A stretch of DNA of 46,316 nucleotides, from contig JAIEOM010000027.1 in the NCBI GenBank assembly GCA_019750455.1, positions 1 through 46,316 on the forward strand. Reading direction: 5' to 3'. Shown here in pieces: positions 24,384 through 43,652 of the stretch; positions within the stretch are counted from its first letter, which is position 1; every line of letters starts with the position of its first letter. The translations under genes and the position numbers were made by a program. The notes beneath the pieces were generated by a model. The model did not search any database. It was not told the origin of the DNA and was given only the letters and a program-made list of their open reading frames with translations. Source of the DNA: Sphingomonadales bacterium (GTDB lineage Bacteria > Pseudomonadota > Alphaproteobacteria > Sphingomonadales > Sphingomonadaceae).

Positions 24384-27300
24384 ATGAAGAAGCACACGCT
24401 TCTCAAAGCCGGTGCGGCAACTGCCGTCATCGCGCTCACGATCGGTGCCCCTGCCTATGCGCAGGATGCCGACGTAACCACTGATACCGCCGCAGAAAGC
24501 GAAGATGTCGGACAGGCGATTGTCGTCACCGGTACCCGCCTGCGTTCGCCTAACCTTGAATCGGCCACCCCGGTCACCGTCGTGACCGCCGAGGAATTCG
24601 CTCTGACGGGCACCACCCGCGTCGAAGACCTCATCAACTCGCTCCCGCAGGTCTTCGCAGGCCAGGGCGGCGCCATCTCGAACGGCGCGACCGGGACTGC
24701 GACCCTCAACCTGCGCGGACTCGGTGCCGAGCGTACGCTGGTGCTGGTCAATGGCCGTCGCCTGATGCCCGGCACGCCGAGCACCTCGGCTGCCGACATC
24801 AACGCCATCCCCGCCGCGCTGATCGAGCGTGTTGACGTGCTGACCGGCGGTGCTTCGTCGGTGTACGGTGCCGACGCGGTCGCCGGCGTTGTCAACTTCG
24901 TGCTCGACACCGACTTCGAAGGCTTCAAGATCAACGCCAACTACGGCGTCTACAACCACAACAACCGTTCGGGCCGCGACATTCGTGAAGCGCTCACCGC
25001 CCGCAACTTCGGCTTCCCGACCGGCAGCGTCACCGATGGCGGAACCTTCGACGGCACCATCGCCTTCGGCAGCAGCTTCGACGACGGCCGTGGCCGTGTC
25101 ACCGCCTATGCCGGTTACCGCAAGATCGACCCCGTGCTCCAGGCCCGCCGCGATTACTCGGCGTGCGCCCTGCAAGCCACTTCGCTGGCTTCGGTGACCG
25201 CTGGTGGCCGTGCCTACAACTGCGGCGGTTCGGCGACCTCGGCGACCGGGACCGTGTTCTACAACGAAGGCATTGGCGCCGACTTCACCTCGACCCTTGC
25301 ACAGTTCGGCCCCAACCGCACCCTGCTGCCCGGCACCACGCCGTTCAACTTCGGCCCGCTGAACTACTTCCAGCGCCCGGACGAGCGTTACACCGCCGGC
25401 GTGTTCGCGGATTACGAAATCTCGAGCGCGATCAAGCCGTACATGGAGTTCATGTTCATGGACGACCGCACGGTCGCCCAGATCGCTCCGTCGGGTAACT
25501 TCGGCAACACCCTGTCGATCAACTGCGACAACCCGCTGCTCTCGCCCGCCCAGCGCGGCGAGCTGTGCAACGCCGGCAACCTGCTGGTCAGCCCGCTGCC
25601 GGGTAACGCCTTCATCGTCACCGGCAACGTTGCCGCCGAAAACGCTGCCCGCACGGCACGCAACATCGGCGAACCGCTGCTGCCGACCACCCCGTTCGGC
25701 TTCATCGATCCGCTGACCGGCACCACCTACAACCGTGCCTTCGCGCAGATCCTGCGTCGCAACGTCGAAGGGGGCGGCCGTCAGGACGATCTCCAGCACG
25801 TGAGCTATCGCGCCGTTGTCGGTGTGAAGGGCGATCTGTCGCCGGCTTGGTCGTATGACGCCTTCTACCAGTATGGCCGTAACAACTACGCGCAGACCTA
25901 CCTTAACGACTTCTCGGTGCAGCGCCTCGGCCGTGCCCTCGATGTCGTCACCGGTCCGGGCGGCACGCCCGTCTGCCGTTCGACGCTCGACGGTTCGGAT
26001 CCGAACTGCGTGCCGTGGGACATCTTCTCGCCGGGCACCGTGGCGCCCAGCGCGGCATCGGTTGCCTACCTCTCCACGCCGGGCTTCTCGCGCGGCATCG
26101 TGAGCCAGCAGGTCGCCAACGCGTTCCTGTCGGGCTCGCTGGGTGAGTACGGGCTGAAGACCCCCTGGTCGGACCAGGGTGTCGACATCGTGCTCGGTGC
26201 CGAATACCGCAAGGAAAAGCTCGAGTTCAACTCGGACGTGGCGTTCAGCACCGGCGATCTCGCCGGTCAGGGTGCCCCGACGCTTCCGGTTGCCGGCAGC
26301 TTTGACGTGAAGGAATTCTTCACCGAAGTGCGTATCCCGATCGCGCAGGACAGCTGGGTGGAAGACTTCACCGTCACCGCCGGCTACCGCTATTCGGACT
26401 ACAGCACGGGTGTGAACACCGACACCTACAAGATCGAAGCCGAACTGGCTCCGGTTCGCGACATCCGCATCCGCGGGGGTTACAACCGGGCCGTGCGCGC
26501 GCCGACCATCCAGGATCTGTTCGCGCCGAACCGCGTCGCGCTTGACGGCTCGACCGATCCTTGCGCGGGCTTCGTGATCGGTTCGGGCGGCTCGGGCCGT
26601 GCGGGCGATCCGGGCTGCGTTGCCCAGGGCCTGACCGTCGGTCAGTTCGTGGCTCCCAACCCGGCCGAGCAGTACAACGGCTTCGTTGGCGGCAACGTCA
26701 ACCTCCAGCCGGAAATCGCCGACACCTACACCGTCGGTGCCGTGCTGACCCCGACCTTCCTGCCGGGCTTCACTGCCAGCGTCGATTACTTCAACATCAA
26801 GGTTGAAGGCGCCATCGGCGGCATCGGGGCCGACCTGATCGTCCAGCAGTGCACGGATACTTCGGATCCGTTCTTCTGCGGCCTCGTTGACCGCGATCCC
26901 TCGGGCTCGCTGTGGCGTTCGCCGGCTGGCTTCGTGGTGAACCTGCCGCAGAACATCGGCTCGCTGACCACCTCGGGTATCGACGGGCAGATCAACTACA
27001 ACCGCGAAATAGGTGATGTCGGGACGTTGACGCTCAACTTCATCGGCACCTGGCTCGACAGCCTGTCGTCGAATGCCGGCGTTCCGGGCGCTCCCGATGT
27101 GGAGTGCGTGGGGCTGTACGGCAACCTGTGCGGCACGCCGAATCCGGAATGGCGCCATCAGGCCCGTCTCGGTTTCAACATGCGTAACGGGATCGGTGCG
27201 TCGGTGCGCTGGCGTTACTTCGACAGCGTCGTGTTCGATGGCCTGTCGGCGACCACCCAGCCGGGTATCCGGGGCTTCGATGCGGTCAACTACTTCGACC

Positions 27301-27488
27301 TCACGCTGACCTATGACGCAGGGGACAACTTCAACTTCGTCCTCGGCGCCAATAACGTCTTCGACAAGGCACCGCCGGTCACCGGCTCGCAGGCTTGCCC
27401 GGCGGGTTCGTGCAACGGCAACGTCTTTGCGCAGGTGTACGACTCGCTGGGTCGCTACGTCTTCGCCGGCGTGACGCTTGATTTCTAA
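24384..27488 (+). CDS. TonB-dependent outer-membrane receptor 1
   Basis: A 1034-residue TBDR. A Sec signal peptide ends at AYA-QD (residue 26). A TonB-box-like IVVTG (about 46-50) is followed by the plug domain with LVLVNGRRLMPG (120-130), INAIPAALIERVDVLTGG and ASSVYGADAVAGVVNFVL (157-174), then a large 22-strand barrel ending in VFAGVTLDF, with the terminal Phe required for barrel assembly. Several Cys pairs fall in predicted extracellular loops. Strong AGGAGG at 24369-24374. No N-terminal signalling domain is present, so it is not a FecA-type transducer. It precedes the oxygenase-sulfotransferase operon, separated by a terminator. Ligand unknown. Confidence 0.95.
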   Translation: MKKHTLLKAGAATAVIALTIGAPAYAQDADVTTDTAAESEDVGQAIVVTGTRLRSPNLESATPVTVVTAEEFALTGTTRVEDLINSLPQVFAGQGGAISNGATGTATLNLRGLGAERTLVLVNGRRLMPGTPSTSAADINAIPAALIERVDVLTGGASSVYGADAVAGVVNFVLDTDFEGFKINANYGVYNHNNRSGRDIREALTARNFGFPTGSVTDGGTFDGTIAFGSSFDDGRGRVTAYAGYRKIDPVLQARRDYSACALQATSLASVTAGGRAYNCGGSATSATGTVFYNEGIGADFTSTLAQFGPNRTLLPGTTPFNFGPLNYFQRPDERYTAGVFADYEISSAIKPYMEFMFMDDRTVAQIAPSGNFGNTLSINCDNPLLSPAQRGELCNAGNLLVSPLPGNAFIVTGNVAAENAARTARNIGEPLLPTTPFGFIDPLTGTTYNRAFAQILRRNVEGGGRQDDLQHVSYRAVVGVKGDLSPAWSYDAFYQYGRNNYAQTYLNDFSVQRLGRALDVVTGPGGTPVCRSTLDGSDPNCVPWDIFSPGTVAPSAASVAYLSTPGFSRGIVSQQVANAFLSGSLGEYGLKTPWSDQGVDIVLGAEYRKEKLEFNSDVAFSTGDLAGQGAPTLPVAGSFDVKEFFTEVRIPIAQDSWVEDFTVTAGYRYSDYSTGVNTDTYKIEAELAPVRDIRIRGGYNRAVRAPTIQDLFAPNRVALDGSTDPCAGFVIGSGGSGRAGDPGCVAQGLTVGQFVAPNPAEQYNGFVGGNVNLQPEIADTYTVGAVLTPTFLPGFTASVDYFNIKVEGAIGGIGADLIVQQCTDTSDPFFCGLVDRDPSGSLWRSPAGFVVNLPQNIGSLTTSGIDGQINYNREIGDVGTLTLNFIGTWLDSLSSNAGVPGAPDVECVGLYGNLCGTPNPEWRHQARLGFNMRNGIGASVRWRYFDSVVFDGLSATTQPGIRGFDAVNYFDLTLTYDAGDNFNFVLGANNVFDKAPPVTGSQACPAGSCNGNVFAQVYDSLGRYVFAGVTLDF

Positions 27489-27510
27489 GCGTCCACTTCG
27501 ATAGACACGG

Positions 27511-27542: not shown

Positions 27543-27558
27543 TGAGGACTGTGTTCAG

Positions 27559-29082
27559 GTGCAAGCCGCCGAAGCCTCCGACAGGATCGCCCGCTTCCCC
27601 ATCCACGACCCGGCTGCTGCGCTGGGCGCGGGGCTGGCGCTGATCAATGGCGACCGGGCCGAAGCCGTGATCCCCCTCGCCCGCCGCCTGACCGAAGCCC
27701 ATCCGCGCAGCGCGCAAGCCCACCAGCTGCTCGGCCTTGCCGCAAGGGCCGCAACCGACAGCCTGACCGCCTGCGAAGCCTTTGCCGCTGCCGCCGCCCT
27801 CGCCCCGCGCGACGCGCTGATCGCCCATTCCTTTGCCCGCACCACTCTTGAGGCCGGCCGCCCCGCCGCCGCATTTTTCGCCGCCGCCGCCGCGCTTGCG
27901 CCGCAGGACGGCAGCGTCATCCTCGGCCATGCCGCCGCACTGTTCCATGAAGGCCGCGCAGGCGAAGCCATCGCCCGGCTCGAAACAATGCTCGCCGCCC
28001 ACCCGCTGTGGCTTGACGGGCACCGCAGCCTTGCCGCCCTGCGCGGGCAGATGGGCGAAAACCCGCTCGCCAACATCGCCGCTGCGCTCGATCGCAACCC
28101 TCGCTCGCCCGAGCTTCACCATCTCGCCATCGCCATCGCGCTTCAGGCCCGCGACCTGCCGCGCGCCGAGGCCGCTGTGCAAGCAGCGCGTGCCGCGCTG
28201 GGCGATGCGGCATGGCTCAGCCTCAACGCCGGGCACATCGCATCGGAAAGCGGTGCGATTGCGGATGCCGACACCTATTTCGCAGCCGCCGGAGCGTCCG
28301 CCGATCCGGGTGCGGCGTGGATGCACGCCCGCCACCTGATCCGCGCCGCCCGGCCCGAGGCTGCCGCGGCCCTGCTCGAACCGATGCTCGGCCAGCCGGG
28401 GGCACATGCCCTGTGGCCTTACCTCTCGCTCGCGTGGCGCATGACGGGAGACGACCGGGCGCAGTGGCTGGAAGGCGATCCGCGCCTCGTCGGGGTCTAC
28501 GATATAGGCTTGCCGGCTGAAGACCTCGCCGCGCTCGCCCAGCACCTTCGCGGCCTGCACCTTGCCAAGGCCGCGCCGCTCGACCAGTCGGTGCGCGGTG
28601 GCACGCAGACCGACGGCAATCTGCTGCTGCGCGCCGAGCCTGCGATCCGCGACCTCAAGGCGCGCCTGCTCGCGATCGTCGCACAGCATGTCGCGCAGCT
28701 CCCCGAAGCCGATCCTGCGCACCCCACCCTCCCCGCCCGCCGCGTGCCGCAGCGCATCGCCGGATCGTGGTCGGTGCGGCTGACCGGCGCAGGCTTCCAC
28801 ACTGATCATGTCCATCCGCAAGGCTGGTTCAGTTCCGCCCTCTACCTCGCCCTGCCAGAGACCCTCGGACGCGGAGAGGCCGATCACGCCGGCTGGCTCA
28901 GCCTTGGCGAGGCGCGCGAACTGGTGCCGGGCCTTGCGCCCTATCGCCTTGTCGAGCCCCGTCAGGGCCGCCTCGTGCTGTTCCCCTCAACCATGTGGCA
29001 TGGTACGCGCCCCTTCACCGCAGGCGAGCGGCTGACCATTGCTTTCGACATCGCCCGCCCCCGACAGGACATTGCCCCATGA
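27559..29082 (+). CDS. TPR protein with C-terminal 2OG-Fe(II) oxygenase domain, copy 1
   Basis: A 507-residue cytoplasmic protein starting at GTG 27559 (GAGGA ten bases upstream). About the first 300 residues are Ala-rich TPR-like helical repeats (for example AHQLLGLAARAATDSLTACEAFAAAAALAPRD). A linker motif AWRMTGDDRAQWLEGDPRLV leads to QSVRGGTQTDGNLLLRAEP and a putative 2OG-FeII_Oxy_5-type domain: SWSVRLTGAGFHTDHVHPQG with candidate metal ligands His417 and His419, and FPSTMWHGTRPF with His481, then RLTIAFD where the Arg may bind 2-oxoglutarate. The HxH arrangement differs from the classic HxD. It is a clear paralogue of the gene at 32317. Its stop overlaps the sulfotransferase start as ATGA. 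Substrate unknown; hydroxylation of a protein or peptide side chain is an inference. Confidence 0.85.
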   Translation: MQAAEASDRIARFPIHDPAAALGAGLALINGDRAEAVIPLARRLTEAHPRSAQAHQLLGLAARAATDSLTACEAFAAAAALAPRDALIAHSFARTTLEAGRPAAAFFAAAAALAPQDGSVILGHAAALFHEGRAGEAIARLETMLAAHPLWLDGHRSLAALRGQMGENPLANIAAALDRNPRSPELHHLAIAIALQARDLPRAEAAVQAARAALGDAAWLSLNAGHIASESGAIADADTYFAAAGASADPGAAWMHARHLIRAARPEAAAALLEPMLGQPGAHALWPYLSLAWRMTGDDRAQWLEGDPRLVGVYDIGLPAEDLAALAQHLRGLHLAKAAPLDQSVRGGTQTDGNLLLRAEPAIRDLKARLLAIVAQHVAQLPEADPAHPTLPARRVPQRIAGSWSVRLTGAGFHTDHVHPQGWFSSALYLALPETLGRGEADHAGWLSLGEARELVPGLAPYRLVEPRQGRLVLFPSTMWHGTRPFTAGERLTIAFDIARPRQDIAP

Positions 29083-30953
29083 CCCAGCCCACCACCGCGT
29101 CCTCAGCCCTTGACGAGGCGATCCGTTTGCGGCGCGCGGGCAATGCAGCGGGTGCGCTGGCGCTGGCCGAAAAGCATGCTGCCCCGACCGATGCCGGCGC
29201 GCCATTCCTTGCCATCGCCGGCCTTGCCGCGCTGGAACTGGGCGATGGTCCGCGCGCCCTCGCCCACCTCGAACCCCTTGCCCGGATGCGCCCCGGGGAC
29301 ACCGATATCCGCGAGGATTACGCCCGGGCGCTTCTGGCTGCGGGGCGCGAGGATGATGCGTTGGCGCTGTCTGCCGGGTCGCCGGTTCCCGGCCTTGCCC
29401 GGATCGAGGCATGGATCTGCCAGCAGCGCGGGCACCTGCGCGAGGCGGTGGCGGCCTATGCCCGGGTGCTGACCGCAGAACCGCAGGACGCCGCAAGCTG
29501 GAACAATCTCGGCAATATCCACGCCTCGTTCGGCCGCTTCGATGCGGCAATTGCGGCCTTCGAACACGCCATCACCCACATGCCGGACGAGCCGGGCATG
29601 TATCTCAATCTGGCCGATGTGCTGCGCCGCGCCGACATCGGCCACGCGCGGCTCAAGGTGGCGCGCGATGCCGCAGTCATCGCGCCCGATAACCGAGCGG
29701 TTCAGACCGAACTTGCCATGGCGCTCGCCCATAACGAGGAGCTGGACGAGGCGATTGCCGTGCTGGAAGCGGCGGTGGCAAAGTGGCCCGAATTCGGCGA
29801 ATCCCACATCGAACTCGGGCGGCTCTACGAAGCGACCAACCGCACCGACGCTCTGGCCGCGTTCCTCGCCAGTCTCGAGCCTGCTTCCTGCCCGCCGGAA
29901 GTCGCTTTTCTCCACGCCTGGCTTGCCCAGCGCGAGGGGCGTTTCGAAGACGCCGCGCGCCATGCCGAAGCGATCCCCGCCACCATCAACCCGATCCGCC
30001 GCGAGGCGCTGATCGGCAACATCGCCGAACGCCTCGGCGATGCCCCGCGCGCCTTTGCCGCATTCGAGGCGATGAATGCCGCTTCCATGGCAGAGGCCCC
30101 GCCGCGCTCCGGTCCGACCTATCGCGAAGGGCTGGAGGCGGACCTTGCCCGCTGGACGCCGGATTGGGCCGCCCGCTGGACCCCGCCTGCCGCCGCTACC
30201 GGAGGTGCGCCGCGTGATCCGGTGTTCCTCGTCGGCTTCCCGCGCTCGGGCACGACGCTACTCGATACCATGCTGATGGGCCTTGCCGATCTGTGCGTGC
30301 TGGAAGAGCGGCCCATGATCGCCGAAGTGGCGCGGGTGGCCGGTGACGCGGATATTGCCAACCTCACCCCGCCGCAGATCGCGTCCCTGCGCGATGCCTA
30401 TTTTGCCGCCGCCCGCAGGCATGGCTGGGACGGGGCACGCTGGCTGGTCGACAAGCACCCGCTCAACATGGCGCGCGTGCCGTTGATCCTGCGCCTGTTC
30501 CCGCAGGCCCGCTTCATCCTCGCCGAGCGCCACCCGGCCGATGCGGTGCTGAGCTGCTTCATGGCGAATTTCACGCTGAACCACGCGATGCGCAGCTTCA
30601 CCGACCTTCAGGAAGCAGCGTTGACCTATGATGCCGCCTTCCGTGCCTGGCACCGCGCCGTCGAGCTGTTCGCCCCCTCCGCCCACGCCGTGCGCTACGA
30701 AAGGCTGGTCGAGGACCCGCGCGCCGAGTTGCAGCCGCTGGTGGAATGGCTCGGGCTTGGCTGGGACGAACGGCTCCTCTCCCACGAGGAAACCGCCCGC
30801 ACCCGAACCCGCGTGCGCACCGCCAGCTATGCGCAGATCGGCGAAAAGCTCTACACCCGCGCGCGGGGGCGCTGGCAGCGTTACCGCGATCAGCTCGCGC
30901 CAGTCTTGCCGATCCTTGCACCCTGGGCCGAACGCATGGGCTATGCCGACTGA
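29079..30953 (+). CDS. TPR-containing sulfotransferase
   Basis: A 624-residue protein. About residues 9-340 are TPR units, the clearest being AAYARVLTAEPQDAASWNNLGNIHASFGRFDAAIAAFEHAI. The C-terminal about 250 residues are a PAPS-dependent sulfotransferase: the 5'-phosphosulfate loop GFPRSGTTLLDTML starts at Gly386, RHPADAVLSCF carries the 3'-phosphate-binding Arg and Ser, and YERLVEDP ends the core. No signal peptide, so sulfation would occur in the cytoplasm, where PAPS is found. Related TPR-sulfotransferases are common in alphaproteobacteria but their acceptors are mostly unknown. The ATG at 29079 overlaps the oxygenase stop, so the two are translationally coupled. Confidence 0.9.
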   Translation: MTQPTTASSALDEAIRLRRAGNAAGALALAEKHAAPTDAGAPFLAIAGLAALELGDGPRALAHLEPLARMRPGDTDIREDYARALLAAGREDDALALSAGSPVPGLARIEAWICQQRGHLREAVAAYARVLTAEPQDAASWNNLGNIHASFGRFDAAIAAFEHAITHMPDEPGMYLNLADVLRRADIGHARLKVARDAAVIAPDNRAVQTELAMALAHNEELDEAIAVLEAAVAKWPEFGESHIELGRLYEATNRTDALAAFLASLEPASCPPEVAFLHAWLAQREGRFEDAARHAEAIPATINPIRREALIGNIAERLGDAPRAFAAFEAMNAASMAEAPPRSGPTYREGLEADLARWTPDWAARWTPPAAATGGAPRDPVFLVGFPRSGTTLLDTMLMGLADLCVLEERPMIAEVARVAGDADIANLTPPQIASLRDAYFAAARRHGWDGARWLVDKHPLNMARVPLILRLFPQARFILAERHPADAVLSCFMANFTLNHAMRSFTDLQEAALTYDAAFRAWHRAVELFAPSAHAVRYERLVEDPRAELQPLVEWLGLGWDERLLSHEETARTRTRVRTASYAQIGEKLYTRARGRWQRYRDQLAPVLPILAPWAERMGYAD

Positions 30954-31032: not shown

Positions 31033-31572
31033 ATGAACCGTATGACTGTCGCCGCCGCGATGCTGGCTACCCTCACCGCCGCACCGCTCGCCGCTGCGGC
31101 CGATGACAAGCCCGAAAGCGCCTACATCAAGGGCTTGCGCGATTGTCAGGCCAAGACCGATCCCGCTGAACGCCTCGCCTGCTATGACAGTGCGGTCGCG
31201 GCGATGGTGGCCGCCAGCAGCGAGGGCGAGGTGCGGGTCGTCGACCGCGAGGAAGTGCGCCAGACGCGGCGCAAGCTGTTCGGCTTTTCGCTACCCGATC
31301 TCGGCATCTTCGGCGGCAAGGACGACAAGGACGATCCGAAGCAGGCCGAGGAATTCACGACGCTCCAGACCACCATCGCAGGCGTCCGCACGATCAATGG
31401 CAAGTATGTCCTTACCACCGCCGAGGGCGCACAGTGGCAGCTTGACGAGATGCCCGCACGCCTGATGAAGCCCAAGGTCGGGCAGCCGCTGGAAATCAAG
31501 GCCGGCGCGCTCAGCAGCTATTTCCTGCGCATCAACGGTCAGGGCGGGGTCAAGGGGCGGCGGGTGCAGTGA
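31033..31572 (+). CDS. Small exported protein, family with RINGQ-GVKGRRV tail, copy 1
   Basis: A 179-residue protein with a Sec signal peptide (MNRMTVAAAMLATLTAAPLAAA-AD). The mature N-terminus has two Cys (38 and 50) in LRDCQAKTDPAERLACYD, a C...RL.CYD pattern also seen in other periplasmic proteins, then VVDREEVRQTRRKLFG (69-84), a charged Asp/Lys segment, and an OB- or beta-barrel-like end YVLTTAEGAQWQLDE...SYFLRINGQGGVKGRRV. It shares these blocks with the protein at 37366. I chose the ATG at 31033, nine bases after GAGGGGAG; in-frame ATGs at 31024 and 31042 are alternatives. It lies between the sulfotransferase and an oxygenase. No function is known to me. Confidence 0.85.
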   Translation: MNRMTVAAAMLATLTAAPLAAAADDKPESAYIKGLRDCQAKTDPAERLACYDSAVAAMVAASSEGEVRVVDREEVRQTRRKLFGFSLPDLGIFGGKDDKDDPKQAEEFTTLQTTIAGVRTINGKYVLTTAEGAQWQLDEMPARLMKPKVGQPLEIKAGALSSYFLRINGQGGVKGRRVQ

Positions 31573-31588
31573 GACTGGGTTGGCAGGC

Positions 31589-32320
31589 GTGAAGACCCTC
31601 TTCGCAATCAATCCCGCGCTCGATATCGCAGCGCACGCTGCCCGCTTTGCCGCGACGGGGCGTGTGCAACTGCGCGATGTGCTGACGCCGGATAGCGCGG
31701 CAGAGCTCCAGATGGTGCTGGCGCGCGGGACCGACTGGGGCATGGCTGTAGGCGCGGGTGCGGCCAAGCCGGAAAGCTTCAGCAGCGCGAGAACCCGCAC
31801 GCCGCAAGGCCAGCAAGCCTTGCGCGATGCCTCCCGCAACGCCGAACAGCATTCCGCACGCGGTGAATATGGCTTCCGCTTTGCCCATTACCCGATCCTC
31901 GAAGCGATGCGCGAAGGCCGGGATCCGGGGGGGCCGCACGAGATCCTGCTCGAACACCTCAATGCACCGGCGTTTCTCGACTTGGTGCGCGCGGTGACCG
32001 GAATCGGGGCGCTGTGCAAAGCCGACGGGCAGGCGACCCTCTACGGCCCCAGTCACTATCTCGGCCACCACAATGACAGCCACGTCGCCGAAGGCTGGGA
32101 GGTCGCCTATGTGCTGAACCTCGCCCGGGACGACTGGCACCCGGATTGGGGCGGCTATCTGCTGTTTCTGGACGAAGAAGGCGACGTCATTGAAGGCTTC
32201 CGCCCGCGGTTCAACGCGCTGAACCTGTTCCGCGTGCCGCAGCCTCATCTGGTCAGCTATGTGCCCCCCTTTGCTCCGGTCGGCCGGATGGCGGTGACCG
32301 GCTGGCTGCGCAATCGATGA
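31589..32320 (+). CDS. Prolyl-4-hydroxylase-like 2OG-Fe(II) oxygenase
   Basis: A 243-residue double-stranded beta-helix dioxygenase. With GTG 31589 as start (MKTLFAINPALD) the metal triad is His161 and Asp163 in GHHNDSHVAEGWEVAYVLNL, and His220 in VPQPHLVSYVPP; Arg233 (GRMAVTGWLR) is placed to hold 2-oxoglutarate. WHPDWGGYLLFLDEEGDV is the typical P4H strand-turn. A TTG at 31580 would add three residues. It stops inside the ATG of the next gene (ATGA). Alone the family hydroxylates prolyl or aspartyl residues in proteins, or small molecules; here it is one of three oxygenases in one operon. Confidence 0.87.
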   Translation: MKTLFAINPALDIAAHAARFAATGRVQLRDVLTPDSAAELQMVLARGTDWGMAVGAGAAKPESFSSARTRTPQGQQALRDASRNAEQHSARGEYGFRFAHYPILEAMREGRDPGGPHEILLEHLNAPAFLDLVRAVTGIGALCKADGQATLYGPSHYLGHHNDSHVAEGWEVAYVLNLARDDWHPDWGGYLLFLDEEGDVIEGFRPRFNALNLFRVPQPHLVSYVPPFAPVGRMAVTGWLRNR

Positions 32321-34008
32321 ACGGCGTGGCAAGCGGCGCACAGGCCGCCGCGATGCAGGCGAGCCAGCTTGCCGCGCAGGGACGCGATGCCGAGGCTGCC
32401 GCCGCCTATGACCGCGCGCTGGCGGACTTCCCGAAGGAGCCACGGCTCGCCAACAGTGCTGGCAATTTCCACTTCAAGGCCGGGCGCCTGACCCGCGCTC
32501 TGGCGCTGTTCGAACAGGCATTGACGCTCGCACCGGACCTTGTCGAGGCTGCGATCAATGCGGCGATCACGCTGGGCCGGCTCGGCCAGCCCGCCCGCGC
32601 GGTCGCCCTGCTCGCCCCTCTCGCGAGGATAGCGCAGGGCAATGCCGCCTATTGGCGGACCCGTGCCGATAACGAGCGACAGGCCGGACAATACCGCGAG
32701 GCCGCGGACAGTCTGGCGCGCGCGGCAGCGCTTGACCCGGCCGGGCCGCACACTGCCCGCAGCCGCGCTCGCCTTGCGCTCGAACGCAGCGCCCCGGACG
32801 CGGTTGCGCTGATCGAGACCGCACTGACCCTCAACCGCGGCGACCCCAACCTGTTGTACGATTATGCGCAGGCCCTTTCCGTCGAAGGACGGATCAGCGA
32901 GGCGCTGGAGTGCACCACCACCCTCGTGACTCATGTCCCGGGGTGGACCGACGGACTGAAGCTCCACGCCGAACTGCGCTGGGCCGGCGGTGATCGGGCG
33001 CGCTTTGCCGACCACTTCGAGAGCGTGACCGCGTTACAGGGCGCCGGACCCGCAGCGTGGCGGGCGTGGTGCGACGTGCTCGACGGTGTCGACCGCCATG
33101 CCGAAAGCGCCGCCGTGCTTGCCCGTGCGCGGGCGATCTGGCCGCAAGACGCCGACCTCGCGCTCGCACAGGCGGTGGCATTGTGCGAGGCGGGACAGGC
33201 AGGTGACGCGCAAGAACTGCTCGACGAATTCGCCGCGCAGACGGGGCCCGACTGGATGATCGCGCGCGGACGCAATGCCCTGCGGCTTGGCGATCCGCAG
33301 CGCGCCGAGGCGGCCCTCGATCAAGCGCGCGCCGCCCGGCCCGGGGATGTCGCGGCCTGGGCGCTCAGCGATCTGGCATGGCGGATGACAGGTGACGCAC
33401 GGCACGAATGGCTGCACGGGCAACCGGGACTCGTGCGGCAGATTGCCATGCCGCTCGGTACCGACGAACGCGAGGCGATCACTGGGCTTCTGGCCCGTCT
33501 CCACGCTCACACGGCCATGCCGATCGGGCAATCGGTCAAGCAGGGCAGCCAGACCAAGGGCGCGCTCTTTGCCCGCGCCGAGCCGGAATTGGCACGACTG
33601 GAAGCGGCGCTTTACGAAGCGATGGCGGATTATCGCGCCGGTCTCCCTCCCGCTGATCCCACGCACCCTTTGCTGGCTCGCAGGGATGAGCCCTGGGCGA
33701 TCAACGGTAGCTGGTCGATCCTGCTCGATGGCGAAGGGCATCACGCAGCACATATTCATCCGCGGGGACTTTTGTCCTCTGCCAGCTACTGGCTGGTGCC
33801 CGAAGAGGTAGATGCGCCCGGTGAGGCCGGATGGCTTGAACTCGGCAACCCGCCACCGGGGCTCGCAGAAGGCCTGAGCAGCCTCCACACGGTGCGGCCC
33901 GCAGAGGGCACGCTGGTGCTGTTTCCGAGCACGCTGTTCCACGGCACGCGCCCGATCAGCCGCGGTCGCCGCATGACTGTCGCCTTCGACGTCACCGCGC
34001 GCGCCTGA
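32317..34008 (+). CDS. TPR protein with C-terminal 2OG-Fe(II) oxygenase domain, copy 2
   Basis: A 563-residue paralogue of the protein at 27559. TPR helices fill about residues 9-340 (for example EPRLANSAGNFHFKAGRLTRALALFEQAL). Then come ALSDLAWRMTGDARHEWLHG, QSVKQGSQTKGALFARAEP and the catalytic domain SWSILLDGEGHHAAHIHPRG with His479 and His481, LFPSTLFHGTRPISRG with His542, and RMTVAFD. The Asp present in copy 1 between the first two His residues is Ala here, supporting HxH plus a distal His as the conserved metal set. Start ATG overlaps the previous stop. It closes the operon ahead of a strong bidirectional terminator. Confidence 0.85.
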   Translation: MNGVASGAQAAAMQASQLAAQGRDAEAAAAYDRALADFPKEPRLANSAGNFHFKAGRLTRALALFEQALTLAPDLVEAAINAAITLGRLGQPARAVALLAPLARIAQGNAAYWRTRADNERQAGQYREAADSLARAAALDPAGPHTARSRARLALERSAPDAVALIETALTLNRGDPNLLYDYAQALSVEGRISEALECTTTLVTHVPGWTDGLKLHAELRWAGGDRARFADHFESVTALQGAGPAAWRAWCDVLDGVDRHAESAAVLARARAIWPQDADLALAQAVALCEAGQAGDAQELLDEFAAQTGPDWMIARGRNALRLGDPQRAEAALDQARAARPGDVAAWALSDLAWRMTGDARHEWLHGQPGLVRQIAMPLGTDEREAITGLLARLHAHTAMPIGQSVKQGSQTKGALFARAEPELARLEAALYEAMADYRAGLPPADPTHPLLARRDEPWAINGSWSILLDGEGHHAAHIHPRGLLSSASYWLVPEEVDAPGEAGWLELGNPPPGLAEGLSSLHTVRPAEGTLVLFPSTLFHGTRPISRGRRMTVAFDVTARA

Positions 34009-34114: not shown

Positions 34115-37087
34115 TCAGAACGTGAAGTTCACACCCACGAAGAAGTCGCGGCCGAGCACGTCGAAGAAGCTCGGCAGGGTGTTGCCCTGTTCGGCCTGCG
34201 CACCGAGAACCGGCGGCTGCTTGTCGAACAGGTTGTTGACGCCCGCGTTGATCGACATGCGCTCGTCCACATCGAAGCCCAGAGCGAGGTCGAAGTAGTT
34301 CCAGGCACCGATCGAACGCAGCGGCAGGGCATTGTTCGGGATACGGTCGTTGCCGCTGAAGGTGTTCTGGACACGGAAGTCTTCCGTGGCCCCTTCATAG
34401 CGCCAGCGAACCGAAGCCGTCAGCGGGCCCTGATCGTAGGTCACGCGGAAGTTGTGACGGTAGTCGGGGAGACCGTAGGTGCCTTCGACGATGTTTTCGC
34501 GAAGCGGCAGCAGCGCCACAGGAGTGTTGCGATACTTGTCGAGCCAGGTGGCCAGGAACATGAACGACAGGTCGCCCTTGAACAGCGGCACCGAGTAATC
34601 GATCTGAACGTCGACGCCCGCGGTTTCCAGCTTACCGACGTTGTCCTGAACCAGCGACGGGTTGAGACCGCCCGAGTTCAGGCCGAGTGCGCCGGTGCCG
34701 GTGTTGCGCTTGCCCGCGAAGATCGTGCACGCCGGATCCTGCAGGTTCCGGACGGTGTTGAAGCACAGCGAGAGCGCGCTGCCGAGGCCGCCCAGACGGG
34801 TGTTGATCGTGTCTTCAACAGTGATGTTGAAGTAGTCGACCGCGATGTTCAGGCGCGGCACGAAAGCCGGCTGAATCACCACACCAGCGGTGTAGGTGTC
34901 GGAAGTTTCTTCACCCACATCCGGGTTGCCGCCGAAGTCGGCCTGGATCTGCGCGTTGGGCTGCACGGCGCGGGTGAACACGGCAGCCGCCGGCACGCCC
35001 GAAGCGATACAGAAGTCACGCAGAGCCTGGGTACGTTCGGCCACAGGACCGCGGTCCGAACACGGATCGGTCGCCTGCGGGAAGCCGGTCGACGCACCGC
35101 CGAACAGATCCTGCACGTTGGGCGCACGCACCGCGCGCGAGTACATGCCGCGGAAACGGACGCCGCGCACCGGAGCGAATTCGCCGCCGACGTTGTAGGT
35201 CCAGGTCCCGCCGACGCGCTCGAGCGAGTAGTCCGAGTAACGGAACGCACCGGTGAATTCCAGCGCGTGGACAAAGCCCTCCTCGATCACCGGGACGCGG
35301 ACTTCGCCGAAGACTTCCTTCACGTCGTAGCCGCCCTTGGTCGGCAGACCGGCGTTGAAGCCCAGCACGTCGCCCGAGGCGAGGAAGGTGTCGGGGATGA
35401 ACTCCGAGTTCATCTCGCGATATTCACCGCCGAACGCGAAGCCGATGTCATCCGCACCCAGACCGAGGTTGAACAGGGTGCCGCTAACCGTGGCAACCGC
35501 GTTCTTCATGTCCGAGGTGGTGATGTTGGTCGCCTGGATGGCGAGGTAGCGCAGCGCCGCCGGATCGGCGAGGCCGGTCCCGAAAACGTTCAGCGGCACA
35601 CAGCCCGCGGCACGAGCCGTGGCATCAACGCAGCGCAGCTGGGTGGTGCTGCCGGGCACGAATTCAACGGTCAGCGCGTTGCGGAAACGGCTGGCCGAGA
35701 TGTTGCCCTGCTGGATGTTGGTGTTGGTCGTGCGCGAGTACGAGTAGTACGCATCGAAGTTGATGTTGTCGGTGATCCCGCCGCGAATCCCGCCAAGAAC
35801 GCGGAAGGCTTCACGGTTGAAGTCCGAGTTGCGGCTGCCGATGTCGTTGAAGCGGAAGTTGACCTGGGTCTGGCGGTACAGCGGGTTCCCGAGGGTCGCA
35901 CCAGCCGTGGTGCTCACCGGGTTCTGGTTGAGCAGTGCGCGGGTCTGGTCATCGAAGAACGGGCTGTTGACAAACAGCGGAGCCGAAATGCCGGCCGGAG
36001 TCGGCGCGAGTTCGGTTGCCACGTCGTTGCGCACGAACGAGACTTCCGAATAGGCTTCGATGCCGTCGGTGAACTCGTAGTGGCCATAGGCGCCGAGCAG
36101 GTAACGTTCCTGCGGGAGCTGCAGGTAGTTATCGGGCGCAAAGTTGTAGAGGTCGGCCGGATCCTGGAACAGGCGCGAACCGCCGCCAGTCGGGTTGAAA
36201 ATGTAGGTCGACTGCGCGCCGGTCGGGCCGGCGTTGAAAGTGCCGGTCGGCGTGGTCGCCGAACCCTGCGGCACGAAGCCGAGCTCACCGCCACGGGCGA
36301 TACAGGTGCCTACAGCGATACCGCTCGGGAACGGCGTGCCGATGTCACCGCGGCCCGTGCTGCCCGGAACGATACAGCCGTCGCCAGCAGCACGCTCGGA
36401 GAACACGCGCGCGTCCTGGAACACCGGATCACGACGGGTGTAGTTGGCGAACATGGTCACCGCACCGCGGCCGTCGTCGAAGGCCGAGCCGATGGCGGCG
36501 TTGAACTGGTAGCGCGCAGCATCGCCGCGGCCGGTCAGCGAGTAGCTGCCGCCGAGTTCAAGACCTTCGATGTCGCGCAGCTTGAAGTTGACGACACCGG
36601 CGATCGCGTCCGAACCGTAGACGGCCGAGGCGCCGCCGGTCGAGACTTCGACGCCGCCCAGCAAGAACTGCGGGATGGTGTTGAGGTCGACGATCTGGTT
36701 GGTATCATAGAACATCCAGCGGCGGCCATTGACCAGCACCAGAGTGCGGGTGGCGCCCAGGTTGCGCAGGTTCAGCGTAACCGCGCCGTTGCCAGGGTTG
36801 TTCGAGAAGCCGGTGATGCCGGGAAGGACCTGCGGCAGGGTGTTAAGCACCTGCTCAACGTTGACGGCACCCGTAAGACGGAATTCTTCGGGCGAAACGA
36901 CCGTGACCGGGCTCGTCGAGTTCAGATCGGTGCGCTGAATGCGCGAACCGGTAACGACGATGGCGGGCGTTTCACTGGTTTCGGCAGCCGAAGTCGTGAC
37001 TTCGTCCTGGGCGAACGCCGGCGTGGCGAACATGGCGCCAGCCATGATCGTCCCGGCGAGCAGCGATGCTTTCTGGAAGCGTTGCAT
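34115..37087 (-). CDS. TonB-dependent outer-membrane receptor 2
   Basis: A 990-residue TBDR. Signal peptide to AFA-QD (residue 26), TonB-box-like AIVVTGSR (42-49), plug motifs RTLVLVNGRRWMFYD, TIPQFLLGGVEVSTGG and ASAVYGSDAIAGVVNFKL, and a barrel ending FFVGVNFTF. A RYSDYSLERVGGTWTYNVGGEFAPVRGVRFRG segment is the usual mid-barrel strand block. It shares domain plan and many motifs with receptor 1. ATG 37087 has an AAAGGGGA site; a longer upstream frame is rejected because the signal peptide begins here. It is divergent from the small exported protein gene at 37366 and carries the TTGCAGAT-N5-ACA motif upstream. Confidence 0.95.
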   Translation of the reverse strand: MQRFQKASLLAGTIMAGAMFATPAFAQDEVTTSAAETSETPAIVVTGSRIQRTDLNSTSPVTVVSPEEFRLTGAVNVEQVLNTLPQVLPGITGFSNNPGNGAVTLNLRNLGATRTLVLVNGRRWMFYDTNQIVDLNTIPQFLLGGVEVSTGGASAVYGSDAIAGVVNFKLRDIEGLELGGSYSLTGRGDAARYQFNAAIGSAFDDGRGAVTMFANYTRRDPVFQDARVFSERAAGDGCIVPGSTGRGDIGTPFPSGIAVGTCIARGGELGFVPQGSATTPTGTFNAGPTGAQSTYIFNPTGGGSRLFQDPADLYNFAPDNYLQLPQERYLLGAYGHYEFTDGIEAYSEVSFVRNDVATELAPTPAGISAPLFVNSPFFDDQTRALLNQNPVSTTAGATLGNPLYRQTQVNFRFNDIGSRNSDFNREAFRVLGGIRGGITDNINFDAYYSYSRTTNTNIQQGNISASRFRNALTVEFVPGSTTQLRCVDATARAAGCVPLNVFGTGLADPAALRYLAIQATNITTSDMKNAVATVSGTLFNLGLGADDIGFAFGGEYREMNSEFIPDTFLASGDVLGFNAGLPTKGGYDVKEVFGEVRVPVIEEGFVHALEFTGAFRYSDYSLERVGGTWTYNVGGEFAPVRGVRFRGMYSRAVRAPNVQDLFGGASTGFPQATDPCSDRGPVAERTQALRDFCIASGVPAAAVFTRAVQPNAQIQADFGGNPDVGEETSDTYTAGVVIQPAFVPRLNIAVDYFNITVEDTINTRLGGLGSALSLCFNTVRNLQDPACTIFAGKRNTGTGALGLNSGGLNPSLVQDNVGKLETAGVDVQIDYSVPLFKGDLSFMFLATWLDKYRNTPVALLPLRENIVEGTYGLPDYRHNFRVTYDQGPLTASVRWRYEGATEDFRVQNTFSGNDRIPNNALPLRSIGAWNYFDLALGFDVDERMSINAGVNNLFDKQPPVLGAQAEQGNTLPSFFDVLGRDFFVGVNFTF

Positions 37088-37365: not shown

Positions 37366-37938
37366 ATGACCGATAGCCACAAGCACGCCCCGCCCGCGCG
37401 GCGCATCCGGTGGGGGGCAGCCGCAGCTGCTGGCCTTACGCTCGTCGGCGGTGCAGCCGTGCTTGCGCAGCAGGCAGGCTGGCCCGGCTCGGCGCGCCTT
37501 GTCGACGACCTGCGCGCCTGCCGCGGAGTTGCGGCAGTGGACGCGCGCGCAGCGTGTTACGATTCGCATGTCGGCACCCTGATCGGTGCGGTCGAAGCGG
37601 GTGATGTGCGCCTTGTCGATCGGGAGGAGGTCCGCAAGACCCGTCGCCAGCTGTTCGGCCTGGCTCTTCCGGAGACCGAACTGCTGAAAGCCGACGAGAA
37701 GGAGAAGGCGGAGGAATCAACCGAACTGTTCGAAACGACGATCGCCAGCAGCCGCCAGACCGCTTCGAACAGCTGGCGCATCACCACCGCAGAAGGTGCG
37801 GTTTGGGAGATCAACAATCCGCCCCGCAAGATTGCGCCCGCCGCCGGGGACAAGTTGACCTTCAAGAAAGCATCGCTCGGATACTACTTCATCCGCATCA
37901 ACGGCCAGATCGGGGTCAAGGGCCGGCGGGTGATGTGA
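37366..37938 (+). CDS. Small exported protein, family with RINGQ-GVKGRRV tail, copy 2
   Basis: A 190-residue paralogue of the protein at 31033. It has an uncleaved anchor or signal (RRIRWGAAAAAGLTLVGGAAVLAQQ, about 12-36) instead of a short signal peptide, two Cys (52 and 64) in LRACRGVAAVDARAACYD, then VDREEVRKTRRQLFG (84-98), a Lys/Glu-rich segment, and ITTAEGAVWEIN...YYFIRINGQIGVKGRRV. ATG 37366 has AAGGAG seven bases before it; a GTG at 37360 is too close to that site. It is divergent from receptor 2 and converges on the S9 peptidase. Function unknown. Confidence 0.85.
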   Translation: MTDSHKHAPPARRIRWGAAAAAGLTLVGGAAVLAQQAGWPGSARLVDDLRACRGVAAVDARAACYDSHVGTLIGAVEAGDVRLVDREEVRKTRRQLFGLALPETELLKADEKEKAEESTELFETTIASSRQTASNSWRITTAEGAVWEINNPPRKIAPAAGDKLTFKKASLGYYFIRINGQIGVKGRRVM

Positions 37939-40202: not shown

Positions 40203-43200
40203 TCAGAAGCGATACAGCACCTGACCGAAGAACTCGCGGCCATTCAGGTCGTAGCCGTTCCCGATCGGAATGTTGTTGACCTGAAGGATGCCCGCACGGT
40301 TCGAAACGCGCGGCGGCGGCGTGTCGAAGATGTTGCGGACGCCGAGGATCAGACGGAGATCGCCATTGTCCCAGCGCACCGAGGTGGTGTGCTCGAAGTA
40401 CTCGTCGGTCGTGCCGACCGGGCGGCAGAACACCCCGTCACCGGCAACCACGCCATTGGCCGAACCGCGACCCAGACAGGTCGGCGAGAAGGCCGGAACG
40501 CCGCCAGCCGGCCCGCGCGAGAAGGCATCACCGAAAGTGACGCGGTCACGGTAGGGTATACCAAGCGAGTTCGAGTTACCGATCGCGTCGATGTAGCGCA
40601 CCTGATAGGTGAAGAGGAAATCCTCCCAACGCGCACCGAAGGTCGCAAGACCCGTCCAGTCCGGGAAGCCGAAGCGGTCGGTGAAGTTCGTCGTGACGAA
40701 GGTATCGACACCGGTCCGCTGGATGTTCGACCGCTCGATCAGGTGGTTGGCCTGAAGGTTGAGCGACAGGTCGATCGTCTCGCCGCCAAGGGTGAGCGGG
40801 TAACCGAAGCTCGAGTTGAGGTCGATACCCCGCACCGATTCCTGGTCGCGGTTGAGGAAGCCGGCCTGCACGCCGCTGATCAGGCGACGATCACTCGCAT
40901 CGATCTCGATACGGTCGCAGAATTCGCTGCGGGCCGAATCTTCACGAAGGAAGCAATCGTTGACGATGAACTGACCCGAAGGCTCGACGATCGCGCCCTT
41001 GATCTTGATGTCGTAGTAATTGAAGTTGAACGCGAAGCGGAAACCGCTGGCCCAATCTTCCTCGAACGCGAAACCGGCCGTGATCGAACGCGAGGTTTCC
41101 GCCTCGATGTCGAGCGAACCGCCCTGGGTGATTTCGCCGCTCACCGACGAAATCGTGTTCAGGCCTTGCGAGTCGATACCGACGCGGGTCGGATCGCGGT
41201 TCTCGCGGCGGCAGTTGTCGAGGACGAAGGTCTCGCGCTGGTCGAGCGAGGCATCATAGGCCCCGTTGACGAAGGCGGCATCAGGCACCGCGCAGGGGTC
41301 GAACAGGGTAGTGAAGCCCGACTGGCCACGCAGGAAGTTCTCGCGCAGGTTCGGCGCACGGAACGAGGTGCCGTAGCTGAACTTGAACAGCAGCGGAGCC
41401 ACCGGACGCCAGCCGCCCTTCAGCGAGAAGGTGCCGTTGGTGCCGTAGAACTCTTCGTCGGTTAGACGGCCCGAGATGTTGACCGAGAGTTCCTCGACCA
41501 GAGTCTCGCCCGCCATCAGCGGAACGTCGATTTCGCCGAACATTTCGCGGATCCACTTGGAACCCGAAGCACCGCCATCGGCGAAGAAGCCGAACAGCAG
41601 ACCGTTCGAGGCAATGAAGCTCGGATTCGAGTCGATCGAGTCCTCGCGCCATTCACCACCGAGCGACACCCCGACAGGGCCGGCCGGAAGCTCGAACAGG
41701 TCGCCGGTGACATAGCCCGACAGCATCACCTGCTCGTAGGTCGTCGAGAAGCTGCGGTTGTCGAACAGGTAGTCGCGCTCCGCCTGAGTGGCGAAGTTAC
41801 CGACCGCCCCGGTCATCACGCTCGGCGCGAAGAGGTTCACGGGCACGCAGCCCCCGGTCAGACCCGGCGCGGCAGCGTTCGGGTTGGCGAGGCCTGCGGT
41901 GTTGCACTCGCCGATGAACAGCGGATCGCCACGGAAGATGTCGATGGCATCGTTGTAATCGTCGGCAATGCCGTCACCGTCGTTGTCGAACACGCCGTCA
42001 CCGTCGAAATCGGCGGTCGGGTCGATACCGAGGGCCAGAGCGAGACGGTCCTCACGGATACCGAAGCGCGAGGAACGGCCTTCGGAACGCGAGTAGGTCC
42101 CGGCCAGTTCGAAGGTCCAGCTCGAACCGATGAACGGCAGGTCGCCGCGCACACCGAGCACGCCGCGATACTGTTCCTGCACAACGCTGAAGTTGTCACG
42201 GTCGCCGAGGATCGAAACGATCGGAAGGGTTGGCAGGTCGAAACCGGACGACAGGCGACCGGCGCGACCGAAGTTGGCCTGCCCCGGGTTGAGGCGCTGG
42301 AACGAGTTGTCCAGTGCACGGCAGTCAACGCCGTTGGCGTTTGTGGTGAAGTTACATGGGTTGAAACGGTTCGCCGCCGGCACCGACGGGAAGATCTGGG
42401 GCAGGCCCGAACCCGTGTTGTTGATTTCAGCGCGGGTATAGGCCGCTTCGAAGAACGGGGTGATGTTGGCGTCGCCCGGGAAGGTGTATTCACCGTAGGC
42501 GAAGACGTTGATCAGCTCCTGACCCGAAACGATCGTGCGATCGAGTTCTTCAGGGCTGGCATTGGTGTTGACGTTCTGGAAGTCGACGTCACGAATGCCA
42601 TCGCCGTTTACGTCGATTTCGCGGCCGAAAGCGTCAGTGTTTTCAGCCCAGGGGAACGGGCGACCGGTGCGCGGATCGAGCGGGAAGTTGGCGATGTTGC
42701 CGTTGGCCGGGAAGTAAACCGAGCCGAAGCGGGTATAGGGCTGGAAGATGCGGCCACCGATGTTGGTGACGACGCACTCGCTTTCCGAAACGCCGATCAG
42801 GTTGTTCGAACGCGAACGCACGAGGGCGTTACCCGAAATGCCGAGCTGGTAGATGTTGCCGTTGGCATCTTCTTCCAGGTTGGTCAGACAGCCACGCAGG
42901 AAGTCACGGTCACGCAGCTTCCATTCTTCGCGGACCTGGTATTCGGCACCGATGCCGAACACGGCGCGGTCGGTGTTGAAACCCCATGCGGCGGAGATGG
43001 TGTAATCTTCGCCCTGACCCTGCGGGTTGACGTCGCCGACAGCCTGCACTTCGAGACCGTCGAAGTCCTTGCGCAGAATGACGTTGACCACACCCGCGAC
43101 CGCGTCCGAACCGTAGATCGACGAAGCGCCGTCGGTCAGGATGTCGAAGCGGTCGACCAGCGTACCCGGAATGAGGTTGATCGACGGGCTGGTCGGCGCA

Positions 43201-43652
43201 CCTTCCACGCCCGAGGGCGAGAGGCGGCGGCCATTGACCAGCAGCAGCGTGCGGCTGGCATCGAGGCCGCGCAGGTTGATGGTCTGCGAACCCGGACCGT
43301 TGTCGAGCACGAAGCCGTTGAAGGTCGCGTCAATCTGCGTACCGGCGGCAGCGGTCGAACGCTGCAGGATCTGCGCGGGGTCGAACGCGCCGACAGCCTG
43401 TTGGTTTTCGGTGGTCAGCACCTGAAGCGGCGAGATCGACGAGTAGGTGTCGCGCACGATGCGCGAGCCGGTGACCACGATGGCGCCCTGTTCGGTACGA
43501 CCCTTCGCGTCGGTCGCGACGTCGACCTTCTCTTCTTCTTCCTGCGCACCCTCTGCGGCGTCCTGCGCGTAGGCCGGACCTGCGATCGCAAAGGTCAGCG
43601 CCGAGGCCGAGAAAGCCAGAGCCTTGATCGAATTGCTGTGAAATTTCTTCAT
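40203..43652 (-). CDS. TonB-dependent outer-membrane receptor 3 with Ca-type DxDxDG loops
   Basis: A 1149-residue TBDR, larger than its two neighbours. Signal peptide to AYA-QD (residue 29), TonB-box-like AIVVTGSR (57-64), plug motifs RTLLLVNGRRLSPSG, LIPGTLVDRFDILTDG and ASSIYGSDAVAGVVNVIL, and a C-terminal EFFGQVLYRF. Two segments are unusual: DVNGDGIRDVDF (347-358) and DFDGDGVFDNDGDGIADD with YND after it (548-568), which match calcium-binding EF-hand/thrombospondin-3-like loops and probably lie in extracellular loops. ATG 43652 has a GGAG site. The TTGCAGAT motif was not found upstream, so its regulation may differ from receptors 1 and 2. Ligand unknown. Confidence 0.95.
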   Translation of the reverse strand: MKKFHSNSIKALAFSASALTFAIAGPAYAQDAAEGAQEEEEKVDVATDAKGRTEQGAIVVTGSRIVRDTYSSISPLQVLTTENQQAVGAFDPAQILQRSTAAAGTQIDATFNGFVLDNGPGSQTINLRGLDASRTLLLVNGRRLSPSGVEGAPTSPSINLIPGTLVDRFDILTDGASSIYGSDAVAGVVNVILRKDFDGLEVQAVGDVNPQGQGEDYTISAAWGFNTDRAVFGIGAEYQVREEWKLRDRDFLRGCLTNLEEDANGNIYQLGISGNALVRSRSNNLIGVSESECVVTNIGGRIFQPYTRFGSVYFPANGNIANFPLDPRTGRPFPWAENTDAFGREIDVNGDGIRDVDFQNVNTNASPEELDRTIVSGQELINVFAYGEYTFPGDANITPFFEAAYTRAEINNTGSGLPQIFPSVPAANRFNPCNFTTNANGVDCRALDNSFQRLNPGQANFGRAGRLSSGFDLPTLPIVSILGDRDNFSVVQEQYRGVLGVRGDLPFIGSSWTFELAGTYSRSEGRSSRFGIREDRLALALGIDPTADFDGDGVFDNDGDGIADDYNDAIDIFRGDPLFIGECNTAGLANPNAAAPGLTGGCVPVNLFAPSVMTGAVGNFATQAERDYLFDNRSFSTTYEQVMLSGYVTGDLFELPAGPVGVSLGGEWREDSIDSNPSFIASNGLLFGFFADGGASGSKWIREMFGEIDVPLMAGETLVEELSVNISGRLTDEEFYGTNGTFSLKGGWRPVAPLLFKFSYGTSFRAPNLRENFLRGQSGFTTLFDPCAVPDAAFVNGAYDASLDQRETFVLDNCRRENRDPTRVGIDSQGLNTISSVSGEITQGGSLDIEAETSRSITAGFAFEEDWASGFRFAFNFNYYDIKIKGAIVEPSGQFIVNDCFLREDSARSEFCDRIEIDASDRRLISGVQAGFLNRDQESVRGIDLNSSFGYPLTLGGETIDLSLNLQANHLIERSNIQRTGVDTFVTTNFTDRFGFPDWTGLATFGARWEDFLFTYQVRYIDAIGNSNSLGIPYRDRVTFGDAFSRGPAGGVPAFSPTCLGRGSANGVVAGDGVFCRPVGTTDEYFEHTTSVRWDNGDLRLILGVRNIFDTPPPRVSNRAGILQVNNIPIGNGYDLNGREFFGQVLYRF

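Follow-up and report, generated by a model that had tools for sequence, protein, structure and literature searches.

The window, a stretch of 46,316 nucleotides (contig JAIEOM010000027.1 of assembly GCA_019750455.1), comes from an Erythrobacter-like bacterium of the Sphingomonadales and carries, between positions 24384 and 43652, a locus in which three TonB-dependent receptors (TBDRs) stand with enzymes that join tetratricopeptide repeats (TPRs) to a 2-oxoglutarate (2OG) oxygenase or a sulfotransferase domain. Our subject is the relation of these enzymes to the receptors beside them. The genes are listed below with the E-values of their Pfam matches; export of the small proteins, the peptidase and the receptors was judged by eye from the N-termini.

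24384-27488, plus strand: TBDR1, TonB-dependent receptor (Plug and barrel), first gene of the enzyme operon; PF07715 4e-23, PF00593 5e-23
27559-29082, plus strand: OG1, TPR and 2OG-Fe(II) oxygenase; PF13759 3e-19
29079-30953, plus strand: ST, TPR and sulfotransferase, resembling protein-tyrosine sulfotransferases; PF13469 7e-34
31033-31572, plus strand: SM1, small protein with an export signal by eye, paralogue of SM2
31580-32320 (a GTG start is possible at 31589), plus strand: oxygenase of the 2OG type, prolyl 4-hydroxylase (P4H)-like; PF13661 3e-15, PF13640 5e-11
32317-34008, plus strand: OG2, second TPR and 2OG oxygenase, of the subtype paired with TBDR2; PF13759 8e-16
34115 to about 37087 (likely start Met at 37087), minus strand: TBDR2, convergent with OG2; PF00593 9e-29, PF07715 8e-20
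37366-37938, plus strand: SM2, paralogue of SM1, divergent from TBDR2
38021 to about 40039, minus strand: S9 (prolyl-oligopeptidase family) peptidase with an export signal by eye; PF00326 7.5e-32
40203-43652, minus strand: TBDR3, upstream of the S9 gene on the same strand; PF07715 1.2e-13, PF00593 1.7e-13

Pfam scans confirmed the gene list of an earlier sequence-only reading of this DNA (three receptors, two TPR-2OG oxygenases, the sulfotransferase, the P4H-like oxygenase, two small exported proteins and the S9 peptidase). The remaining frames scanned between 24384 and 43652, where those shorter than 80 amino acids were inspected in gaps only, gave no Pfam match, and no sugar catabolic gene, regulator, transporter or halogenase was found among the frames scanned. 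The plus-strand run reads TBDR1, OG1, ST, SM1, P4H-like and OG2; OG1 and ST overlap by ATGA, as do P4H and OG2, and the gaps measure 70 bp (TBDR1-OG1), 79 bp (ST-SM1) and 7 bp (SM1-P4H). Since TBDR2 lies on the opposite strand, tail to tail with OG2, the earlier reading needs correction: TBDR1 alone heads the enzyme operon. S9 and TBDR3 are a pair of their own on the minus strand. The assembly (3.06 Mb in 289 contigs) contains 39 Plug matches, but PF13759 proteins and SM homologues number no more than two each, and as all four of these fall within 24384-43652, the grouping of genes at the locus is more than chance.

The predicted folds and nearest relatives of the enzymes support the view that they are directed at proteins. 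The AlphaFold 2 (AF2) model of OG1 (predicted local distance difference test score, pLDDT, 93.3) was compared by means of the VIA-align structure listing. Its TPR part had a superhelix like that of O-GlcNAc transferase (OGT) among its best matches in both sequence and structure, and its oxygenase part resembled 2rg4/3bvc, the P4H of P. putida (the entry with EF-Tu included) and PHD2 with a HIF peptide; human-type aspartyl hydroxylase (AspH) was not among the 50 structure matches listed, which excludes nothing. OG1 and OG2 have a 2OG oxygenase fold. Their domain is PF13759, with no match to PF05118 (Asp_Arg_Hydrox) at E 0.1, and in place of the canonical HxD...H triad with its carboxylate they carry, by eye, an HxH motif (H417, H419, H481) in 22 of 22 aligned sequences, so that on their motifs we have not filed them as canonical P4Hs; the P4H-like protein does have HxD...H...R by eye.

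The nearest solved sulfotransferases to the ST domain are TPST1 and TPST2 (E 2e-12 to 2e-11), followed by CurM at 5e-5, and the PRSGTT loop and the Glu-Glu and Lys of the active region align with those of TPST; we take the loop to bind 3'-phosphoadenosine-5'-phosphosulfate (PAPS) and the Glu and Lys residues to be catalytic. In sister loci a neighbouring TPR-AspH protein matches solved AspH over the oxygenase domain (E 2.6e-24), and AspH itself requires its TPR to hydroxylate a protein, according to PMC6817910. No signal peptide was seen by eye in OG1 or in the enzymes generally, which together with the TPST-, OGT- and P4H-like matches agrees with the earlier suggestion that the TPR enzymes act on a protein or peptide in the cytoplasm.

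The association with receptors was examined at 100 TPR-2OG loci, 20 of them from a scan of the order, chosen from diverse genera because their open frames were long and without regard to their neighbours, and the other 80 being the best named loci among the matches listed in a contig profile scan. TBDR profiles were built from the 100 loci and then applied to loci and controls. A TBDR lay within 5 kb of the TPR-2OG gene at 84 of the 100 loci and at 69 of the 74 whose sequence extends at least 5 kb to either side of it; the 26 that fall short of this, 15 of which have a TBDR within 5 kb, were kept out of the 74. For the control, 40 random 19-kb regions were drawn from ten of the genomes and 39 of them searched with these profiles, which may overlook remote TBDRs; a receptor was present in 3 of the 39. 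Some of the control regions share sequence with one another, and L193 does so with a TPR-2OG locus. The difference (69/74 vs 3/39) has a Fisher p of 1e-20, and the expectation for random regions calculated from the Plug density of the window's genome is 17%.

A scan of the phylum with the TPR-2OG profile gave matches in 196 of 199 genomes and was swamped by TPR-only matches, but among the best matches listed five rows from outside the order, in which the alignment extended far into the oxygenase and to its end, were kept (G282 twice, G268, G153 and G238). These loci, which had no part in building the profiles, have a TBDR within 5 kb in 5 of 5 cases. The proposal that the enzymes belong with TBDRs, rather than occurring mostly away from them in related genomes, is thus borne out both within the order and beyond it.

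Receptor and oxygenase also match in kind. For 82 TPR-2OG/TBDR pairs, each taken as an enzyme and its nearest receptor within 3.5 kb, the trees of both proteins were compared, and the subtype of the oxygenase corresponded to that of the receptor in 70 (the maximum on shuffling was 48). Pairwise distances correlated over all pairs (Mantel r 0.44, against a maximum of 0.22 in 999 shuffles) and within class 1 (r 0.63) and class 2 (0.46), each with 0 of 999 shuffles as high, as well as within the halogenase class described below (0.49, 1 of 999 as high), these distance correlations including species relatedness. At least one of the 12 mismatched pairs (L076) is due to the nearest-receptor rule, the operon's own receptor lying beyond ST, and where both oxygenase subtypes are present at L080, L085 and L087, each adjoins its own receptor. 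The layouts are likewise characteristic: the receptor is upstream on the same strand in 31 of 33 class 1 pairs and in 14 of 18 pairs of the halogenase class, where the gap of 1.1 to 1.6 kb is the position of the halogenase, and 25 of 31 class 2 pairs are convergent.

Within the genus the pairing is inherited. Among 41 genomes scanned, TBDR1 at 83% identity or more occurs in 6, that of the window included, with OG1 and ST beside it in 6 of 6; in all five of the other genomes the orthologues are 83-91% identical and adjoin OG1 and ST. A seventh OG1 of the genus, in G367, lies at the edge of its contig (start at base 13); in G366 a TBDR1 of 54% identity is accompanied by ST and not by OG1; and seven remoter TBDR1-like matches (37-38%) have a TPR-2OG gene beside four of them and none beside the other three.

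One might suppose that the oxygenases are sensors of oxygen, iron or 2-oxoglutarate that modify a cytoplasmic regulator of receptor expression, and the likeness of the oxygenase fold to PHD2 and to the P. putida P4H solved with EF-Tu fits such a role. However, no recurrent regulator appeared in the TBDR1- and TBDR2-type loci among the neighbour clusters examined (some, not all of them), and the matching of receptor subtypes exceeds what a sensor would need; we regard a sensory role as improbable.

The 19 kb do not make up a single system, as had been proposed, because in relatives three modules are found separately. These are TBDR1-OG1-ST-SM1, the S9-TBDR3 pair, and P4H-OG2, which faces TBDR2. 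In E. donghaensis (L086) the first module is directly followed by S9 and TBDR3, and at L089-L092 it stands without P4H-OG2 and another receptor follows. At L082, L083 and L162 P4H-OG2 faces TBDR2 with no ST match in the 7 to 9 kb upstream. Beyond the second module (P4H-OG2, TBDR2 and SM) lie S9 and a receptor at L082 and L207, and the start of an S9 gene at L087 of Porphyrobacter sp. SLTP.

The enzymes themselves vary from locus to locus. Near the 100 TPR-2OG loci we found ST at 36, TPR-AspH at 25, a flavin (tryptophan) halogenase at 18 and a P4H-like oxygenase at 14; 64 of the 100 loci (46 of the 74 full loci) have no ST within 6 kb, and AspH or halogenase can stand in its stead. The sequence-only reading suggested that hydroxylation could create the acceptor for sulfate, which, given these varying combinations, is not a general rule, and TPST-like enzymes are not known to need prior hydroxylation. 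No ST, AspH or SM is in range at any of the 18 halogenase loci, and 16 of them carry at least one of GH32, GH36, GH68, LacI, MFS and ROK genes, by which they appear to resemble uptake operons of a sucrose or fructan type. The order TBDR-halogenase-TPR-2OG is found within such operons at L117, L119, L121, L129, L132 and L141, and these offer a ready model for the role of receptor-linked halogenases. One TPR-2OG family thus serves receptors with ligands that very likely differ.

This last point bears on the idea that the enzymes act on an imported ligand, a peptide that would enter via the receptor, be trimmed by S9 and then be hydroxylated and sulfated in the cytoplasm. An S9 gene beside a receptor in the window and at L082, L086 and L207, an S9-like gene immediately before each of two of the five TPR-2OG genes without a receptor, and enzymes that by eye have no signal peptide would all suit it. 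Yet with the same TPR-2OG family in operons that point to sucrose or fructan use, an imported ligand is unlikely as the substrate; S9-TBDR3 is moreover a separable module, and there is no inner-membrane transporter among the frames scanned in the window from 24384 to 43652. We consider this explanation unlikely, if still worth keeping in mind.

The small proteins SM1 and SM2 are paralogues (49%) with invariant cysteines C38 and C50, and are modelled as helices followed by a small beta barrel, a fold with no counterpart in Foldseek at an E-value up to 0.001. Across 59 SM sequences Asp52 is invariant, Pro88 is nearly so and no Tyr is. Under a strict score threshold, 44 of the 100 TPR-2OG loci (38 of the 74 full loci) have SM within 8 kb, and 30 of the 48 SM frames concerned are divergent from a TBDR within 2 kb; a looser cut (53 loci, 44 divergent) took in antisense shadow frames, and the strict cut was used. 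In the order scan, 84 of 147 genomes gave SM homologues, as a rule a single one, and many of these matches were weak. Twenty SM loci were fetched as lying away from TPR-2OG genes, one of which (L207) turned out to have such a gene; a TBDR is found in the stretch read at 10 of the 20 and none at the other 10, among which L218 has a P4H-like match. A recurrent setting is purD-xseA-M23-SM, in which M23 was recognised by family and the names purD and xseA were assigned from sequence. SM therefore often adjoins these receptors and yet is independent of them, and its standing as a dedicated part of the system, which the sequence-only reading had assumed, is weakened by the loci free of receptors.

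These proteins could nonetheless be the substrate, SM1 and SM2 being modified in the cytoplasm and then secreted beside the receptor. Two SM genes in the window, the proximity of SM to TPR-2OG loci and its frequent divergence from a receptor are what such a role would lead one to expect, but neither a TBDR nor a TPR-2OG gene occurs at 10 of the 20 loci fetched, SM recurs at the purD-xseA-M23 site, 18 of 18 halogenase-type TPR-2OG loci lack SM, and the family has no invariant tyrosine. We give it only a slim chance.

The relatives of the S9 peptidase are acylaminoacyl-peptidase and DPP4. Its score against the lasso isopeptidase AtxE2 (NF033523), 42.8 bits, falls far short of the cut-off of 400, and no lasso family match was found among the window proteins scanned. 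As had been noted earlier, no precursor peptide gene is recognisable in the operon, whose gaps of 79 bp or less leave no room for one. Eight gaps contain 52 short frames, several of which, among the matches listed, are conserved, on both strands and in overlapping frames; they seem to behave as conserved regulatory DNA does, though a small precursor in the wider gaps outside the operon is conceivable. Elsewhere in the genome a lasso-like cluster (L233, 2306-8632) comprises asparagine synthase, a Transglut_core3 B2 protein, an ABC transporter and a BBP2_2 porin.

These observations are relevant to a ribosomal peptide that would be modified, secreted and re-imported by the receptors in the manner of a peptide signal or metallophore. 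In Table 2 of PMC10040529, sulfotransferases and an aspartyl hydroxylase of related genera have cluster numbers that almost follow on from those of lasso genes, their adjacency not being stated. The lasso-like cluster on another contig and the short gap frames that match relatives would accord with such a peptide; the lack of any lasso family match among the window proteins, the S9 score far under the AtxE2 cut-off, the tight operon and the matching of the short frames on both strands and in overlapping frames make it very doubtful.

Tentatively, and at somewhat short of an even chance, we read the locus as a set of receptor-linked protein-modification modules, in which cytoplasmic enzymes modify the receptor or an exported partner before export. 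This reading builds on the observed gene content, adjacency, subtype matching, genus co-inheritance and protein-type enzyme folds, from which we infer the step that leads from receptor pairing to the receptor as substrate. Each module would consist of a TBDR and TPR-guided cytoplasmic enzymes, namely a TPR-2OG hydroxylase of matching subtype with or without the TPST-like TPR enzyme, which in relatives would be joined or replaced by TPR-AspH or the flavin halogenase. Before export, while still in the cytoplasm with its supply of 2-oxoglutarate and PAPS, an extended or unfolded polypeptide might be held by the TPR superhelix, and a few of its side chains hydroxylated (by the 2OG enzymes) or sulfated (by ST) in the catalytic domain. 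The neighbouring receptor, being the constant partner and matched in subtype, is the favoured substrate, another exported partner being less likely. Once at the surface, the modified side chains may influence how the protein folds, gates or binds its ligand. TPST and AspH act in this way on secreted and surface proteins of animals (PMC6817910 for AspH).

As the receptor-enzyme pairing recurs in many related bacteria, chemical modification may precede the arrival of these receptors at the cell surface. A broader proposition, to which we would assign a chance well below even, is that bacteria have a pathway of receptor maturation that acts before export. In it, TPR-guided PF13759 and AspH hydroxylases, TPST-like sulfotransferases and the flavin halogenase would be an interchangeable set, each co-evolved with a TBDR that it modifies in the cytoplasm, much as animal surface proteins are sulfated and hydroxylated.

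Several observations weigh against modification of the receptor. Five of the 74 loci have no TBDR within 5 kb (L065, L066, L068, L155 and L158): an S9-like gene lies directly upstream of TPR-2OG at L066 (6480-8747) and L068 (5690-7804), L065 has an S9-like gene and a TBDR edge fragment more than 6 kb away, and L155 and L158 have a dnaJ-like frame instead, by eye. Conversely, receptors of the same broad class stand without any such enzyme nearby at L208, L215, L240 and L241, the genome's own AspH and second ST have no receptor profile match in the stretches read, and both oxygenase subtypes surround one TBDR2-class receptor at L113. The convergent enzyme and receptor of class 2 do not make one operon. 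No modified residue or receptor site was found in the sequence analysis, where 24 receptor columns (3 of them Tyr) are tied to the presence of ST, a tie confounded by descent, and none to that of AspH. Finally, the loci share ancestry and themselves served to build the TBDR profiles, so the counts are not independent.

The shorter TPR-2OG genes of the two Parasphingopyxis loci (L155 9914-11197, L158 9908-11203) follow the dnaJ-like frame, and L158 has a dnaK-like frame as well. The genome's own AspH-family protein (L232, 7395-8564) has a methyltransferase gene and a dihydrolipoamide-dehydrogenase-like one as neighbours, and the receptor profiles matched nothing in the 17.5 kb read.

Each protein family here is already known (NCBI names the sulfotransferase a 'tetratricopeptide repeat-containing sulfotransferase family protein'), and loci that combine a TBDR with accessory enzymes are familiar as well. 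TPST1 and TPST2 are the nearest solved relatives of the ST domain, with the PRSGTT loop, Glu-Glu and Lys aligned, but ST, whose activity is putative, is bacterial, fused to TPRs and by eye devoid of a signal or membrane anchor. AspH and other secretory-pathway hydroxylases with TPRs share with OG1 and OG2 the combination of TPR and 2OG oxygenase, and AspH-family proteins occur in sister loci; OG1 and OG2, however, carry PF13759 instead of PF05118, are presumed cytoplasmic and are linked to receptors. The likeness to O-GlcNAc transferase is one of repeat geometry only, the TPR superhelix being alike and the catalytic domain different, and from P. putida P4H and PHD2, whose oxygenase fold is similar, the OG1 family differs by HxH in place of the usual HxD. 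In sugar-uptake TBDR loci with a flavin halogenase a sister group of the same TPR-2OG family stands behind TBDR and halogenase, but the window has neither a sugar gene nor a halogenase among the frames scanned. RaxST and RaxX exemplify bacterial tyrosine sulfation of an exported polypeptide, and by analogy we propose a likeness to that sulfated-peptide system.

A full-text literature search, with subscription journals and preprints outside its scope, listed no account of such enzymes acting on or paired with TBDRs, and passages of PMC11337851 and PMC4110880 contain nothing on enzyme-TBDR pairing. A receptor as substrate would, if true, be categorically new. Receptors, of which such a genome has dozens with mostly unknown ligands, would then carry modifications missed by sequence prediction and by expression in E. 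coli; orphan PF13759 TPR-oxygenases, TPR-sulfotransferases and receptor-linked halogenases would have substrates; and bacterial protein hydroxylation and tyrosine sulfation would be testable at one simple locus. Even with another substrate, the receptor-enzyme pairing is a strong and specific lead.

The locus is flanked by the following genes.

22870-24171: thiolase, before TBDR1
from 44007: Clp ATPase, beyond TBDR3

The gap between thiolase and TBDR1 (24172-24383) is conserved in relatives on both strands and is perhaps regulatory DNA, and further upstream in the window (13557-20462) are tad-type pilus genes, comprising CpaB, a secretin, CpaD, a ParA-like protein and two T2SSF proteins.

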